This document shows positions 1 through 5,806 of a DNA stretch of 64,000 bases, in pieces. The DNA lies in assembly GCF_023238445.1 (NCBI RefSeq), contig NZ_CP096658.1, positions 434,001 to 498,000 on the forward strand. The letters run 5' to 3'. Both the position numbers and the translations under genes were made by a program. The notes under the pieces are model-generated. The model did not search any database. It saw only the letters and a list, made by a program, of their open reading frames with translations, and was not told the origin of the DNA. The DNA is from Halorussus gelatinilyticus (lineage in GTDB: Archaea; Halobacteriota; Halobacteria; Halobacteriales; Haladaptataceae). The number at the start of each line of letters is the position of its first letter. The first letter of the stretch is position 1.

Positions 1-1
1 C

Positions 2-496
2 CGACGACGCCGATACGCACTCCATTATCTCAGACGTGCCGAGGGTTCGGTGCAGTTGTCCGAACTCGCCGAGCAGGTGGCCGCGTGGGAGAACGACATC
101 GAAGTCGATGCGATTTCTGCGGCGGAACGCAAGCGCGTGTACACTGCCCTCTACCAGTCGCATCTCCCGAAGCTGGACGACGCGGGCATCGTCGATTACA
201 ACCAGAACCGCGGTATCGTGGAACTCTCGGACGCCGCCGAGCAGCTCGACGTGTATCTGGACCTCGAATCCCAGCCCGACATCCCGTGGTGTAACTGGTA
301 TCTCGGACTCGCAGTCGGGGGACTCGGACTGCTGACGGGCGCATGGCTCGGACTGCCGCCGTTCTCGCTGGTCGCCGACGTACTTCTCGCAACGGCGGTC
401 GTCGCCGCCTACGGCGCAGTCGCCGTCACGCACACGTACTACGCCCGACACGCCAGCGGTGCCGGCGAGACGCCTCCCGAAGTACAGGAGTCCTGA
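2..496 (+). CDS. DUF7344 domain protein with C-terminal membrane segments (5' end outside window)
   Basis: The reading frame is open to the left edge, and the residues before the first in-window GTG (position 50) read RRRRYALHYLRRAEGSVQL. This is the usual first helix of the haloarchaeal DUF7344 winged-helix-like domain, so the gene begins upstream of position 1 and the GTG is internal. The soluble domain (LSELAEQVAAWEN, ERKRVYTAL, HLPKLDDAGIVDY) is followed by two hydrophobic segments at about 298-355 and 361-430, so this copy is membrane-tethered. The stop lies 2 nt before the next gene, which encodes a DUF7504 protein. DUF7344/DUF7504 pairs are common in haloarchaea and are thought to act in signalling or regulation, but no biochemical role is established. 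The family call is from sequence pattern. Confidence 0.85.
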   Translation, partial: RRRRYALHYLRRAEGSVQLSELAEQVAAWENDIEVDAISAAERKRVYTALYQSHLPKLDDAGIVDYNQNRGIVELSDAAEQLDVYLDLESQPDIPWCNWYLGLAVGGLGLLTGAWLGLPPFSLVADVLLATAVVAAYGAVAVTHTYYARHASGAGETPPEVQES

Positions 497-498
497 CC

Positions 499-1062
499 AT
501 GGAGGAGGCGGCACGGTCCAGAGACGGAACGCTCGGACGCGACGACCCGAGGGGCGCGTTCGCCCCCGCCGGGTCTCAGACGCTCGTTCGGACGCCCACC
601 GACGCCGACCCGCTCGCCGCCCTCCCGACACGCGCGACCGACACGCTGCTGGTGGTTTCGGCACGCGACCACCCGAAGCGACTCGAAGCGAAGCTCGAAC
701 GCGCCGGTCACGACCCCGCGAACGCGGGCGTCGTGCCGGTCGTCCCCGCGGCCCGCGACTACGACGGCGACCTCTGGACGACAGACCCCGTGCGTCCGAA
801 CGACTTGACTGGCATCGCCATGCGGTTCTCCGACGCAATTCGCCACGTCGAACCCGGAACGGGGTGGGTCGTCCTCGACGCACTCGGCGTCCTCCTGATG
901 TACGCCGATTCGGACCGCGTCTGCCAGTTCTTCCAGACGATGACCAACCGCGTGCGGGCCCGGGAGGTCCGGGGCGTCTACGGCGCGAACCCCGACGCTA
1001 TCTCCGACGAGACCTTCGAGCGGCTCCGGTCGATGTGCGACCGCGAACACGACCTCGGATAG
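499..1062 (+). CDS. DUF7504 family protein (RecA/KaiC-like fold, no Walker A)
   Basis: This 187-aa protein starts 2 nt after the DUF7344 gene, so the two are almost certainly co-transcribed. The first ~40 residues are acidic and disordered. The rest has the alternating strand-helix pattern of haloarchaeal DUF7504 proteins: TLLVVSARDHPKRLEAKL near residue 50, GIAMRFSDAI near 105, and VVLDALGVLLMY near 123. The last matches the Walker-B-like strand of RecA/KaiC-type ATPases. No Walker A P-loop (GxxxxGKS/T) is visible, as is usual in this family, so ATP hydrolysis is not implied. A regulatory or signalling partner role for the DUF7344 protein is inferred from pairing only. Confidence 0.75.
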   Translation: MEEAARSRDGTLGRDDPRGAFAPAGSQTLVRTPTDADPLAALPTRATDTLLVVSARDHPKRLEAKLERAGHDPANAGVVPVVPAARDYDGDLWTTDPVRPNDLTGIAMRFSDAIRHVEPGTGWVVLDALGVLLMYADSDRVCQFFQTMTNRVRAREVRGVYGANPDAISDETFERLRSMCDREHDLG

Positions 1063-1214
1063 CGGTGGGGTTCCAGGCCCCGGCCTCAAACGGCGGCCTC
1101 AGGCCTCCAGAAGCGGTTTCAGGCGATCCCTGCGCGGGTTTCAGGGCGTCGTTTCCGGCGTGAAATGGTCACTCGTCGGCAGTGTCTATCGCTAGAGACT
1201 CGTTTCACGGGTAG

Positions 1215-1246
1215 ACGAGTCCAGAAGCCACGGCTTCTGGACTCGT
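1215..1246. terminator. Perfect 15-bp hairpin, likely terminator
   Basis: Arms 1215-1229 and 1232-1246 are exact reverse complements (acgagtccagaagcc and its complement), separated by 2 nt. The hairpin lies between the DUF7504 gene and the left repeat of the tRNA-Val element, on the side that would have been just downstream of the tRNA before integration. It could be the original tRNA terminator or the terminator of the DUF7504 transcript. There is no long T-tract. Confidence 0.4.
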
Positions 1247-1265
1247 GAACGAAACGCAAATTTGG

Positions 1266-1285
1266 AGTGGGTTTGGGCAGATTTG
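1266..1285. repeat. Distal attachment-site repeat (copy of tRNA-Val 3' end)
   Basis: Twenty bases (agtgggtttgggcagatttg) are identical to 5731-5750, which spans the 3' end of the tRNA-Val gene (part of the T arm, acceptor strand, discriminator) plus 2 nt downstream. Both copies have the same orientation. A truncated tRNA 3' end at a distance from an intact tRNA is the signature left by site-specific integration into a tRNA gene. The flanking bases differ on both sides. Confidence 0.8.
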
Positions 1286-1305
1286 GACCGGATAGAAGGC
1301 CGTGA

Positions 1306-1395
1306 AATAACCATATCACGCCCAAGATTGGCGATGAGGACATTCGAAACCTCCACGACAAGTTCAGTGACGACTATCTGGAAATGGAGAACTAA
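1306..1395 (+). pseudogene. C-terminal stub of an unknown gene
   Basis: A short open stretch without a start codon reads like a protein tail: PKIGDEDIRNLHDKF followed by SDDYLEMEN and TAA. It begins after an in-frame TGA at 1303-1305, 20 nt inside the left attachment repeat, and ends 36 nt before the IS630 left end. It could be the tail of a lost integrase or of a cargo gene, but I do not recognise the family. Confidence 0.3.
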
Positions 1396-1479
1396 TCCTC
1401 GAGATAGACAGGGTTAGCCGGTTAGATGCCACTATAGTAACCGTTAGAACTTTTTGCTCAGAGACTGTTGTAAGAGATA

Positions 1480-2004
1480 GTGAATCATCTCGACGAGATC
1501 TCCGTCGAGGAATTGCAAGACGCTCTCGACAACGTGGACGGAAAGAAGCCGACACAACGGCTCCTAGCAGCCATCGCGTACAAGAACGGTGTAACGCAGA
1601 CCGAGCTAGCCGAGTGGTACGACGTTCAGCGGCGGACCATCTACAGCTGGCTCAAGCGACTCGACACCAACGAGCCGCTTGAGCAAGCCGTTTCTGACGA
1701 TAAACGAACTGGGAGAAAGCGAAAACTCTCAGAATCACAGCAAGAAGAATTCGAAGAAACCGTTCACGACCCACCTGAAGAGGTCGGGATCGACGCGCCG
1801 GCGTGGACGCCGGCGCTCGTCCAGGAGTATCTCGAAGAAACGTACGGCGTCGAGTATTCAATCCCGAGCTGTCGGCGGTTGCTGAAAGAAGCGGGATTGA
1901 GTTATCAAAAACCGCGCCGTTCAGCCGCCGAATCCGACGAAGACGAGCAAGAAGCGTTCCATGACGAGCTCAAAAAAAGCGGCGGGAAATGGACGCCACC
2001 GTAG
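1480..2004 (+). CDS. IS630 transposase, N-terminal ORF (HTH part)
   Basis: This 174-aa ORF with a GTG start encodes the DNA-binding half of the transposase. A first HTH (TQTELAEWYDVQRRTIYSWL, about residues 46-65) is followed by a basic linker and a second winged-helix-like region ending in RRLLKEAGLSYQKPRR. The zero frame stops at 2004, shortly after the A7 run. A -1 shift there joins it to the downstream ORF and yields a continuous KKKRREMDATVVCIDQT junction, which is what intact IS630 transposases look like. The functional product would therefore span 1480-2480, about 333 aa. Unshifted translation would give a truncated DNA-binding protein that could repress transposition (inference). Confidence 0.85.
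   Translation: MNHLDEISVEELQDALDNVDGKKPTQRLLAAIAYKNGVTQTELAEWYDVQRRTIYSWLKRLDTNEPLEQAVSDDKRTGRKRKLSESQQEEFEETVHDPPEEVGIDAPAWTPALVQEYLEETYGVEYSIPSCRRLLKEAGLSYQKPRRSAAESDEDEQEAFHDELKKSGGKWTPP
1972..1978 (+). promoter_or_regulatory. A7 slippery site for -1 frameshifting
   Basis: Seven consecutive A residues lie in the ORF overlap. In the zero frame they are read AAA AAA followed by AGC. Moving back one base gives AAG CGG CGG GAA ATG, entering the frame of the catalytic ORF. A homopolymer run allows either ribosomal or transcriptional slippage. Such a site is typical of two-ORF IS630 elements. Confidence 0.7.
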
Positions 2005-2480
2005 TCTGTATCGACCAGACCAAGAAATCCGTCCAAGTTGAGCCGCGTGCCGCGTGGTTTCCGCGCGGCACGCGACCCTCGGTCGAACTCTCTGGGCAAC
2101 GCGACTGGACGTGTCTGCTGGGCGCAATCACCGAGGACGGTGATCGATTCTTCTCTCGATTCACCGAGTACGTCACGGCCGAACACGCGAAACATTTCAT
2201 TTTAGCATTATGCAAAGAATTCGAAGAGGACTTGATCGTCGTGTTGGACGGAGCGCCATATTTTCAGGCGTCGGCCGTCACGGATCTGGCGGCCCGTGAC
2301 GACCTCGCCTTTGTGACGTTACCATCGTATTCGCCGGAGCTGAACCCTGTCGAGGAATGCTGGAGACAGCTTCAAGCTGCTCTCAGTAACCGTTTCTTTG
2401 ACTCGCTCGACGAGCTAACAACAGCGATTGACACCGCTCTCGACCAGCTCTCTGTCCCTAATGTGAGTAATTACTTCTAG
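1989..2480 (+). CDS. IS630 transposase, C-terminal ORF (DDE catalytic part)
   Basis: This 163-aa ORF is in the -1 frame relative to the upstream transposase ORF and overlaps it by 16 nt. It holds the three catalytic acids of the IS630/Tc1-like DDE domain: first Asp in VVCIDQTK (residue 8), second Asp in IVVLDGAPYF (about residue 80), and Glu in SPELNPVEECW (about residue 118). The in-frame ATG at 1989 is unlikely to be a natural start, because the -1 frame is open across the A7 run and gives a sensible fused protein. The ORF ends 13 nt before the end of the right inverted repeat. Confidence 0.85.
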   Translation: MDATVVCIDQTKKSVQVEPRAAWFPRGTRPSVELSGQRDWTCLLGAITEDGDRFFSRFTEYVTAEHAKHFILALCKEFEEDLIVVLDGAPYFQASAVTDLAARDDLAFVTLPSYSPELNPVEECWRQLQAALSNRFFDSLDELTTAIDTALDQLSVPNVSNYF

Positions 2481-2566
2481 TGCCTACTATAGTGCGACAC
2501 GGATCGTCCTGTCAATTTGCTGTTCCGCCAGTTCCTTTTTGAAGCCTCTGGGTATAGTATAGCACA

Positions 2567-4978
2567 ATGGGGGACGATTCTTCGAAAGACGTTGCGACGG
2601 GAGAGCAGTCAGGTGAAGGGGGTGTTGAGACGGAACTCTCGCGCGACATGAGCCTGTTCGACATCACCTTCATCGGCGTAGGGGCGATGATCGGAGCCGG
2701 GGTGTTCGCGCTCACCGGGTTCGCCGCTGGCCTCGCCGGGCCCGCGCTGACGCTTGCGTTCCTCCTCAACGGCTTCGTGGCGATGTTCACCGCGGTGTCG
2801 TACGCCGAACTCGGGGCGGCGTTCCCCGAAGCCGGCGGCGGCTACCTCTGGGTCAAGGAGGCGCTGGTCGACCCCAACGGCTTCTATGCGGGATGGATGA
2901 GTTGGTTCGCCCACGCGGTCGCGTGTTCGCTCTACGCAGTCACGTTTGGTGTGTTCCTCGTCGAACTCGTCGTCTATTCGACGGGACTTCCCCACGAGTT
3001 CCACTTGCTCGGGTTTATCACCCCGATCATGGCCGAGAAAGGCCTGTCGGTCCTCATGGTCGCCGCCTTCGCTTACATCAACTACCGAGGAGCAGAGGAG
3101 ACCGGGAAGGCAGGCGTCATCGTGACCGGTATCAAGATCGTCATCCTCGGCGCGTTCATCGCGTTCGGCGCGTACGCGACCGTTACCGCGCCCCAGTGGA
3201 CGGACAAGTTCTTCAACAGCCCGTCGTTCGCGCCGAACGGCCTGTTCGGTATCATCGGCGCGATGGGGTTCACGTACATCGCGTTCGAGGGGTACGAGAT
3301 CATCGTTCAGTCCGGTGAGGAGGTCGTCGACCCCGGTTCGAACATCCCGAAGGCGGTGTTCTACTCGATGGCCATCGTCGTTCCCATCTACATCCTCGTC
3401 GCGTTCGCGTCCATCGGCGGCATCGACGTGACGCAACGTATTATCGGCCTCGCGGAAGTCAGCGGTCAGCAGAACGTCTACACGTGGGAGCTACTGGGCG
3501 AACTCGGCGAACTCGGTATCATCCGGGCCGCCGGACAGTTCATGCCTTACGGCGTCCCGCTGCTGCTGTTTGCAGGGCTGGCGGCGACGATGAGCGCGCT
3601 GAACGCGACGGTGTACTCGTCGAGTCGGGTCTCGTTCGCGATGGGCCGCGACCGCGCGCTTCCGGGTGTCTTCAACAACATCCACCCCGACAAGCGGACG
3701 CCCCACTGGGCGATTTTCATCTCGGCGATCCTGATCGCGGCGATGGCGGTCATCCTCCCGATCGAGGCGGTCGCGGCCTCCGCGGACATCATGTTCATCC
3801 TGCTGTTCGTGCAGGTCAACTGGACCGTCGTCCGGATGCGCGAGACCCACCCCGACCTGCCCCGGACGTACGAGGTGCCGTTCATGCCGTGGCCGCCGCT
3901 CATCGGCATCGTCCTCCAGATAATTCTAACGCCGTTCCTCATCTACACTCTCGGCCTTGAAGCTCTCGGCATCGGTGAGAGTAACCACGGCCTCATTGCG
4001 CTTGTGACGACCGCAGTTTGGATGGGATTGGGACTCCTAATTTACTATGGGTACTCCAAGCAACAGGAAGCCGAACAACTCGAAGAAGAAACTCCGACGC
4101 TCGTGACCGAACATACTCCATCCGAAGCGGAAGGCCAAATCGTCGTTCCCATCGCGAACCCCGAAAACGCCGCGCAACTGATGCGGACAGCGGTCGATAT
4201 CGCTCGGGACAAAGACGCCGAAATTCTGGTAATGAGCGTCGTGACGGTTCCCCAGCAGACTCCGATTTCGGAGGGCCGGGAGTTCGTTACTGACGAACGA
4301 GAGGTCCTCAACGAGGCGATGGACGTCGCAGAGGATGCCGGTGTGCCGGTCAATGGTACGATCCGTATTGGTCACGATGTTGCAGAGGCGATTCTCAACA
4401 CCGTCGAGCAGTACGACTGCGAGATGGTTCTGATGGGTTGGAAGGGCCAGCACAAGAGCCAGCGCCGTGACATCGTTCTCGGGAGTAACGTGGATACGGT
4501 CGCGCAGAAGGCAGATGCAGACGTCCTGGTCGAGCGAATCGGTGGAGCCGGAGACGTCGAGTCTATCTTAGTTCCCACAGCGGGCGGTCCACACGCCGAT
4601 CTCGCCGCCGAGATTGCACGAGCAATCGCACGGACGACGGGGGCTGACGTTGACGTAATGCACGTCGTCGAACCAAATGCGGACGATCAGCGGCGTGAAG
4701 AAGCACAGAATACCGTTGAGTCTACTACGGCTATACTCGAAGGCGTAGATGGTACCAATACGAGTATCGTCGAGGGGGACGACATCGCCACCACAGTAGT
4801 CGAGGAATCGGACGCCTACGACCTGACAGTCGTCGGTGCCACTCGGGAAGGCTTACTCAAACAGTTCGTCTTCGGTGCCGTTCCAGAACAAATTGGGTGG
4901 GAGGCAAAGAGCACCGTGATAATGGCGAAACGCAACATCGACATCACCTCGACATTGTCTCGGTGGCTCGGACCGTAA
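2567..4978 (+). CDS. APC-family amino acid transporter fused to two universal-stress (USP) domains
   Basis: In this 803-aa protein, residues ~20-490 form an APC-superfamily permease with about twelve hydrophobic segments. The first, FDITFIGVGAMIGAGVFALT, contains the GAMIGAGVF substrate-site motif, and AFPEAGGGYLWV follows. After a charged linker come two USP-type nucleotide-binding domains: QIVVPIANPENAAQ from ~525 and SILVPTAGGPHADLA from ~665. The transporter is expected in the cytoplasmic membrane with both USP domains in the cytosol, probably sensing ATP/AMP or energy state. Substrate specificity cannot be read from the sequence. It is the only intact non-IS gene inside the tRNA-Val element and starts 73 nt after the IS630 right end. 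Confidence 0.9.
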   Translation: MGDDSSKDVATGEQSGEGGVETELSRDMSLFDITFIGVGAMIGAGVFALTGFAAGLAGPALTLAFLLNGFVAMFTAVSYAELGAAFPEAGGGYLWVKEALVDPNGFYAGWMSWFAHAVACSLYAVTFGVFLVELVVYSTGLPHEFHLLGFITPIMAEKGLSVLMVAAFAYINYRGAEETGKAGVIVTGIKIVILGAFIAFGAYATVTAPQWTDKFFNSPSFAPNGLFGIIGAMGFTYIAFEGYEIIVQSGEEVVDPGSNIPKAVFYSMAIVVPIYILVAFASIGGIDVTQRIIGLAEVSGQQNVYTWELLGELGELGIIRAAGQFMPYGVPLLLFAGLAATMSALNATVYSSSRVSFAMGRDRALPGVFNNIHPDKRTPHWAIFISAILIAAMAVILPIEAVAASADIMFILLFVQVNWTVVRMRETHPDLPRTYEVPFMPWPPLIGIVLQIILTPFLIYTLGLEALGIGESNHGLIALVTTAVWMGLGLLIYYGYSKQQEAEQLEEETPTLVTEHTPSEAEGQIVVPIANPENAAQLMRTAVDIARDKDAEILVMSVVTVPQQTPISEGREFVTDEREVLNEAMDVAEDAGVPVNGTIRIGHDVAEAILNTVEQYDCEMVLMGWKGQHKSQRRDIVLGSNVDTVAQKADADVLVERIGGAGDVESILVPTAGGPHADLAAEIARAIARTTGADVDVMHVVEPNADDQRREEAQNTVESTTAILEGVDGTNTSIVEGDDIATTVVEESDAYDLTVVGATREGLLKQFVFGAVPEQIGWEAKSTVIMAKRNIDITSTLSRWLGP

Positions 4979-5000
4979 TGTGAGCCGCCGTCGTTTATAG

Positions 5001-5397
5001 ACCGTTCTTGCTCAACATCCGGACAGGCTCTCGACAGATGTCCTCCGAATTGCAACTCTCGGAATATTCGTCTCGTTCGGAGGGTTCGTACTTCGTGTCG
5101 CTACTGGTGTGATTGTCCTTACTGCCGGTGCGGTTCACGTTCCATATCCGTGGCTTGAGGTTGCGATGTGTTCTTCAATCCGTTTTTGCGAATTGGGCAT
5201 GTGATTATTGTGTCCTGATACCGAGTTGACCGTATGAACACCCCCGGCTAATCGCTTATCTCACTCTTTTGGCTATTTTTATATTCCTTATCGGATGGGG
5301 AGACCGCTTTGGCGTAACGAGTGGTTCAGCGATAGTATTCCCACATCTTGTGGGTGTCGGGGGATCTTACTTGCCCTCTTTATTTACCATTTCGTGA
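5001..5397 (+). pseudogene. Decayed membrane-protein remnant
   Basis: Two open stretches in different frames lack start codons but look like pieces of a hydrophobic protein. The first (5001-5204) includes IATLGIFVSFGGFVLRVATG and VIVLTAGAVHVPYPWLEVAM. The second (5230-5397) includes LIAYLTLLAIFIFLIGWGDR and ends FTIS-stop. They are separated by stops and a frame change, so this is probably a frameshifted pseudogene of the element. The parent family is not recognised. From 5398 to 5690 I see no gene; base composition is clearly more AT-rich than in the flanking chromosome. Confidence 0.35.
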
Positions 5398-5692
5398 GGG
5401 GATACCGAGAACCATAGTTGAGAACCGTATTCGCTGGAGCCAAAACCTATCCTCCCAAACCAATTTTCCAAGGGCTAATCTACGCTCTGCATTGAACGTT
5501 GGCTCAGAACCTCCTACACGGCCACTTCACGACTGTGAAGGTCGTCGGTACTAAATATCCCATAGGTTTCCGTTGTTACGCTACACCAGAACGAATCGAG
5601 TCCTAATCACCAGAAGCCGGAAAGGGACAATACAAAAAGTCATGGAATATGACAATACCCACGGCTACCAACGAGGAATAACGTGAAGAAGT

Positions 5693-5726
5693 TCCCTCCG
5701 TCGCGCGGTTCACACGACCGGAGGGA
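5693..5726 (-). terminator. Hairpin just downstream of tRNA-Val
   Basis: The 8-bp arms tccctccg (5693-5700) and cggaggga (5719-5726) form a hairpin starting 7 nt beyond the tRNA-Val 3' end on the minus strand, followed by cttcttcac. It is placed where a tRNA terminator would be, but it lies inside the integrated element, so it would have been supplied by the element. Confidence 0.4.
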
Positions 5727-5730
5727 GTGT

Positions 5731-5750
5731 AGTGGGTTTGGGCAGATTTG
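5731..5750. repeat. Proximal attachment-site repeat overlapping tRNA-Val 3' end
   Basis: This is the second copy of the 20-bp direct repeat also found at 1266-1285. It covers the last 18 nt of the tRNA-Val gene plus 2 nt downstream, so the tRNA remains intact after integration. Confidence 0.8.
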
Positions 5751-5806
5751 AACTGCCGGCCTCCTCCATGTCAAGGAGGTGTCATAACCAACTAGACCAC
5801 AAACCC
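5733..5806 (-). tRNA. tRNA-Val(GAC)
   Basis: Read on the minus strand, the acceptor GGGUUUG pairs with CAAACCC followed by discriminator A. The anticodon stem CCUCC/GGAGG encloses loop UUGACAU, giving anticodon GAC (Val). The T arm GGCAG/CUGCC encloses UUCAAAU. The total is 74 nt with no intron and no encoded CCA. Its 3' end is the integration target of the neighbouring element. Confidence 0.95.

Follow-up and report, generated by a model that had tools for sequence, protein, structure and literature searches.

Background

The closest described counterparts of the locus analyzed here are the elements of the IntSNJ2 type and the pleolipovirus-like proviruses. In the part of the source available to us, an IntSNJ2 family member is defined by an integrase with at least 30% identity over 60% of the protein and by the combination of a Phage_int_SAM domain (PF02899 or PF13495) with the Phage_integrase domain PF00589 (PMC8371274). 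The accessible text of a second report describes SNJ2 as using tRNA-Met as its target and a pleolipovirus-like provirus as adjoining a tRNA gene (PMC5867852). In the literature searched, no paper evidently dealt with a Halorussus element at tRNA-Val.

The DNA studied in this work, called the window throughout, is a stretch of 64,000 nucleotides from Halorussus gelatinilyticus. A first-pass annotation made from the letters alone had described the interval 1266-5750 as an islet that integrated next to a tRNA gene, moved a stress-linked amino acid transporter and then lost its recombinase. We have compared the interval with the corresponding loci of relatives and with elements in other families, and conclude that it is very probably what remains of a small integrative element, inserted into the 3′ end of tRNA-Val(GAC) through recombination by a tyrosine integrase. 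A short end sequence can thus reveal a dead element once the integrase is gone, and here it ties the Halorussus islet to complete elements of 2.5-3 kb from other families. The approach may help to uncover further silent remnants of integration and to study how stress-linked transporter genes become established in archaeal chromosomes.

Results and discussion

The sequence AGTGGGTTTGGGCAGATTTG at positions 1266-1285 is an exact 20-bp direct repeat of positions 5731-5750, both read on the plus strand, with the copies 4,465 bp apart; a longer register of 26 bp (1263-1288 and 5728-5753) retains 92% identity. An intact tRNA-Val(GAC), the presumed integration target, is called by ARAGORN at 5732-5806 on the minus strand. 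The second repeat copy is its 3′ end, so that the interval lies downstream of the tRNA, in the orientation that the first-pass annotation had considered right for integration. The tRNA 3′ end is therefore repeated at both borders, as is typical of tRNA-integrated elements, and the distal copy would represent the former chromosomal 3′ end of the tRNA. With up to 3 mismatches allowed, the 20-mer has just two sites in the 3.67-Mb genome, both of them these borders (the reversed pattern, used as a control, gave 0 matches). Wide scattering of the 20-mer, named beforehand as an argument against integration, was thus not found, and a chance origin of the repeat is ruled out by the absence of a third genome copy. 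The G+C content of the interval is 56.9%, compared with 68.2% in the left flank.

The left flank (window positions 1-1262, encoding DUF7344 and DUF7504 proteins) was matched beside tRNA-Val in 15 of the 16 Halorussus relatives fetched, with partial matches also in three further genomes of the same family (G018, G019 and G021). Its DUF7504 gene (499-1062, plus strand; PF24336, E 8.6e-18) is a conserved chromosomal neighbour and marks the left border. Three of these 15 relatives, G010, G005 and G006, have a flank match that stops 72, 96 and 136 bp from the tRNA, respectively, and we read these loci as empty sites, another trait of tRNA-integrated elements. In the other 12 the matched flank ends 0.5-4.8 kb from the tRNA. 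The count of empty sites leaves out G011, which gave no tRNA match, and G003, which gave no flank match. Between DUF7504 and tRNA-Val, six of the 12 relatives with larger gaps have DNA in common that carries a weakly Rieske-like gene (L032, L033, L035, L037, L039 and L040; E 0.052, under the cut-off, for the one copy tested), and hence some of the larger gaps do not represent independent insertions. This DNA has no match in the inserts of the window and of the close Halorussus relative G008.

The insertion sequence, transporter gene and right tail of the window (described below) gave no blastn match in the loci of 19 relatives. The finding that the first-pass annotation had singled out as contrary to its proposal, namely the conservation of 1286-5730 at this place without the repeat, was accordingly not made. 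A conserved native region is ruled out, the interior being unmatched in the loci of the 19 relatives and the right tail in 58 other genomes. The hairpin noted earlier at 1215-1246, which lies in the chromosome just outside the left repeat, is real: its self-complementary match forms a 14-bp stem resembling a terminator. The empty site had been predicted to read from the tRNA 3′ end directly into this hairpin; three empty sites were indeed found, but none reads into a comparable hairpin, as no stem of at least 7 bp was found in their spacers. The flank of the left repeat shows only a weak likeness to the tRNA flank of the relatives, at best 9 of 14 bases (G013).

The link to other elements is found at the tRNA-proximal end of the interval. 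Comparison with elements of two genomes, G160 and G213, which belong to two other haloarchaeal families than the window's genome, delimited a conserved element end at 5683-5730 (minus strand) with a palindrome at 5693-5726. Starting with the final 6 bases of the repeat, the end segment of the interval is 90.7% identical to the G160 element along 54 nt and 90.4% identical to that of G213 along 52 nt; when the 20 preceding bases are included, identity reaches 86% in G376 and 84% in G331 over 81 nt, and 92% over 51 nt in G008. A search with the G160 end gave matches at E ≤ 0.01 in 13 of 392 genomes, themselves a sample from a larger order; the window's genome matched with E 5.8e-15. The best six (E ≤ 2.3e-5) were G160 itself, G376, G331, G213, the window's genome and G008, and tRNA-Val(GAC) is present in the locus of five of them, G331 being without it; in the loci of the remaining seven (E 0.0013-0.0098) no tRNA is present. 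A sequence pattern for the end segment matched 11 of the 392 genomes; the locus contains tRNA-Val(GAC) in five and no tRNA at all in six (G116, G341, G309, G171, G140 and G331). Since the pattern was derived from G000, G008 and G160, G213 is its only independent exact match.

When folded as RNA the window palindrome has a z-score of -4.3, and the ends of G160 and G376, each with a second hairpin, have z-scores of -2.8 and -4.3; the second hairpin is not recognisable in the window copy. Between G160 and G213 the end is better conserved than the integrase half (80% over 100 nt versus 71% over 1,072 nt). Beyond the end segment, no blastn similarity was found between the window interval and either element. 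The pattern TGGGTTTGGGCAGATTTGRAC, searched as a free attP, had 0 matches in viral contigs, and a 15-mer of the end segment had 39, one of which passed a filter for att-like context. A 46-base match in a Natrinema thermotolerans plasmid, 30 bases of it att, was set aside. In G376 and G331 (L210 and L211) an ORF of 168 amino acids adjoins the shared end, and that of G376 encodes a bacterial PH domain (PF14470, E 3.3e-5); no integrase was seen among the ORFs listed there, which were read by eye.

The elements of G160 and G213 are complete. In G160, tRNA-Val(GAC) is followed by a unit of 2,479 bp bounded by a perfect 30-bp repeat, which comprises an integrase frame of 360 amino acids starting at the distal repeat and a SHOCT-domain protein of 152 amino acids. 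The G213 unit, also beside tRNA-Val(GAC), is 2,958 bp long with perfect 32-bp repeats, and its integrase shares 70% identity with the G160 enzyme. Both thus have an integrase between the repeats, and in G008 this trait is truncated: the same end is present, and only the C-terminus of an integrase is left at the far border. The G008 remnant shares 51% identity with the G213 integrase (E 1.2e-42) and matches PF00589 with E 7e-4 at 19.8 bits, below the 27.1-bit cut-off. The G008 insert (L154/L031) is 2.1 kb long with 50% G+C and has two further ORFs, of 230 and 119 amino acids, for which Pfam gave nothing above the cut-off.

Among the matches listed for the G160 integrase in the 392 genomes, only G213 is close (70%) and the others reach at most 48%. 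Thirty integrase loci were retained, 23 of them without a tRNA call, four with tRNA-Val and three with another tRNA (Gln, Ile and Phe), where L236 is counted under tRNA-Gln, the tRNA-Val of G213 lying outside it. The anticodon of the tRNA-Val loci is GAC in L235 and L244 and CAC in L239 and L247. In L244 (G297) an integrase of 48% identity lies between tRNA-Val(GAC) and an 18-bp repeat of the tRNA 3′ end about 2.2 kb away; the end segment is absent. Five viral stretches matched patterns of the G160 integrase and none of them encodes a relative.

No integrase between the repeats was found in the window, neither among the ORFs of the interval nor as a trace, in agreement with what the first-pass annotation had stated. 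A loose tblastn search of the window with the proteins of G160, G213 and G376 gave no outstanding E-value among the matches listed. Among the PF00589 matches listed, which do not include the G008 remnant, none is closer than about 40 kb (G001) to a Halorussus tRNA-Val; for the window's genome the list has 11 of 12 matches, with the nearest at a distance of about 108 kb.

The shared end, the complete relatives in G160 and G213 and the truncated one in G008 together indicate that the window holds a decayed tRNA-Val-specific element without its integrase. We propose that a small element integrated into tRNA-Val(GAC) at its 3′ end through the action of a tyrosine integrase. Judging from the anatomy of the locus, the attP core would have been a copy of the tRNA 3′ end, by virtue of which the tRNA would have stayed whole and the displaced chromosomal end would have become the distal repeat. 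The integrase half would have been lost in the window copy, and the interior is now filled by an IS630-family insertion sequence and an open transporter gene. Having no integrase of its own, the element is probably fixed in place.

The insertion sequence (1432-2492, plus strand) carries HTH_33 and DDE_3 domains, and its best haloarchaeal plasmid copies, 91-92% identical, end within a few bases of these borders; blastn finds a single copy in this genome. Its transposase consists of two overlapping open frames (1480-2004 and 1989-2480). This corrects the earlier listing of insertion sequence and transporter as the only intact genes of the interval; the transporter frame is open over 803 amino acids. 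This transporter gene (2567-4978, plus strand) begins about 75 bp from the IS end and joins an amino acid permease domain (PF00324, E 8.1e-43) to universal stress domains (Usp, E 2.6e-32 in 2 stretches), hence APC-USP. The tails are AT-richer and decayed, as described before. The left remnant (1286-1431) contains no recognisable gene, and it is at this end that the relatives in G160 and G213 start their integrase frame. As a query (1260-1432) it had no match in plasmids, nor had its 24-aa frame, and in the loci of the 19 relatives only the repeat and the flank before it were matched. The right remnant (4979-5682) has windows of 48-53% G+C and, in a six-frame reading, frames broken by stops; apart from the short end segment, the query 4979-5731 was unmatched in the 58 other genomes and in plasmids.

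The closest homologues of the APC-USP gene include a gene on a plasmid of Halorussus limi (NZ_CP096661.1), in the vicinity of TrkA and TrkH genes, with 88% identity over the whole length, from which the same domain order is expected in the H. limi protein. The comparison of the two gave dN 0.07 and dS 0.75, which indicates purifying selection between them, and from these mostly silent changes the gene is probably kept by selection in the lineage of the window as well. The window gene differs from the plasmid transporters in being chromosomal, with homology that ends at the gene borders; this was the outcome among the 38 homologous loci compared. A further homologue, in the Halorussus genome G012, shares 84% identity with the window gene and belongs to a tandem pair of APC-USP genes (L075, G012:C1:259005-264683), the other member of which has 73%.

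These data bear on the claim that the element had moved the transporter. The ORFs of the G160 and G213 elements include no transporter, and the nearest homologues lie elsewhere without shared flanks, so this part of the proposed history was not upheld, in contrast to the integration at tRNA-Val and the loss of the recombinase. The gene may have come after integration, by plasmid recombination or together with the IS630, a view that competes with element cargo only on the origin of the gene and to which we give even chances. Besides the absence of transporters from the complete relatives, it draws on the plasmid genes among the nearest homologues, on the plasmid location of close IS630 copies and on the short distance between gene and IS; it has to contend with the position of the gene between the two repeats, like cargo, and with the lack of any footprint of a separate gene insertion.

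A broader scheme would recognise a family of tRNA-Val(GAC)-specific mini-elements defined by a structured end of about 100 nt, with the window copy as a trans-mobilisable satellite whose integrase was swapped for cargo; we regard it as unlikely. That the interval is a non-autonomous satellite mobilisable in trans by the integrase of a co-resident element we find somewhat less likely still. The conserved tRNA-proximal end and att beside an unrelated interior would suit a satellite, as would two full-length relatives of the G160 integrase elsewhere on this chromosome (best E 5.0e-82). These relatives are distant, however: the genome's closest matches to the G008 fragment have 36-37% identity, compared with 51% for the G213 integrase. 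Moreover, the second hairpin of the end is unrecognisable in the window, and a search of 58 other genomes did not recover the right tail.

The decayed tRNA-Val element resembles those of the IntSNJ2 type in its tRNA 3′-end target, its tRNA-derived direct repeats and the tyrosine integrase of its relatives in G160 and G213. Over residues 2-360, the integrase of G160 shares 35.1% identity with its counterpart in Saline Natrinema sp. J7-1 virus 2, a virus that we take to be SNJ2. Against this one member it thereby exceeds the family's identity threshold, as given in the available part of PMC8371274. Both integrases match PF00589 above the cut-off (E 3.6e-10 for G160, 2.2e-13 for G213), and for the SAM domain only related models match, PF13102 scoring 22.0 (G160) and 18.8 (G213) against a 22.3-bit cut-off. 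The differences concern the target, tRNA-Val(GAC) rather than the tRNA-Met reported for SNJ2 in the accessible text of PMC5867852, and the size of the complete relatives, only 2.5-3.0 kb; the window copy furthermore has no integrase of this family and holds the IS630 and the transporter instead. Its putative tie to IntSNJ2-type elements is the shared end segment only. The pleolipovirus-like proviruses (HHPV4, HRPV9 and SNJ2) likewise have a related integrase, with 39-40% identity between the HRPV9 and HHPV4 enzymes and that of G160 (40% for HHPV4), but no virion gene was recognised in the window interval or in the ORFs of the two complete elements (G160 and G213), which were read by eye, five of them being scanned with Pfam as well.

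The least probable alternative, to which we attach very little weight, is that the left repeat goes back to an old displacement of a tRNA 3′-end copy, with transporter and IS arriving by other routes: such copies do sit 110-167 bp from tRNA-Val in other genomes, but 1286-1480 contains no second hairpin arm (at best 9 of 18 bases mismatched, as against 0 in G017), and the element-type end segment beside the tRNA would be left unexplained. A second copy of the tRNA-Val 3′ end at that distance downstream of tRNA-Val(GAC) was observed in nine of the 15 genomes examined (G017, G018, G019, G020, G023, G040, G191, G285 and G376; loci L046, L047, L049, L086-L090 and L216), seven being counted by an exact 18-mer and nine by a looser pattern; G021, G022, G042 and G043 have none. 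The copy forms one arm of a hairpin, the other arm being its inverted copy, and four such hairpins had folding z-scores of -4.4 to -8.1. In G376 and G331 the element end abuts the displaced copy instead of the tRNA.
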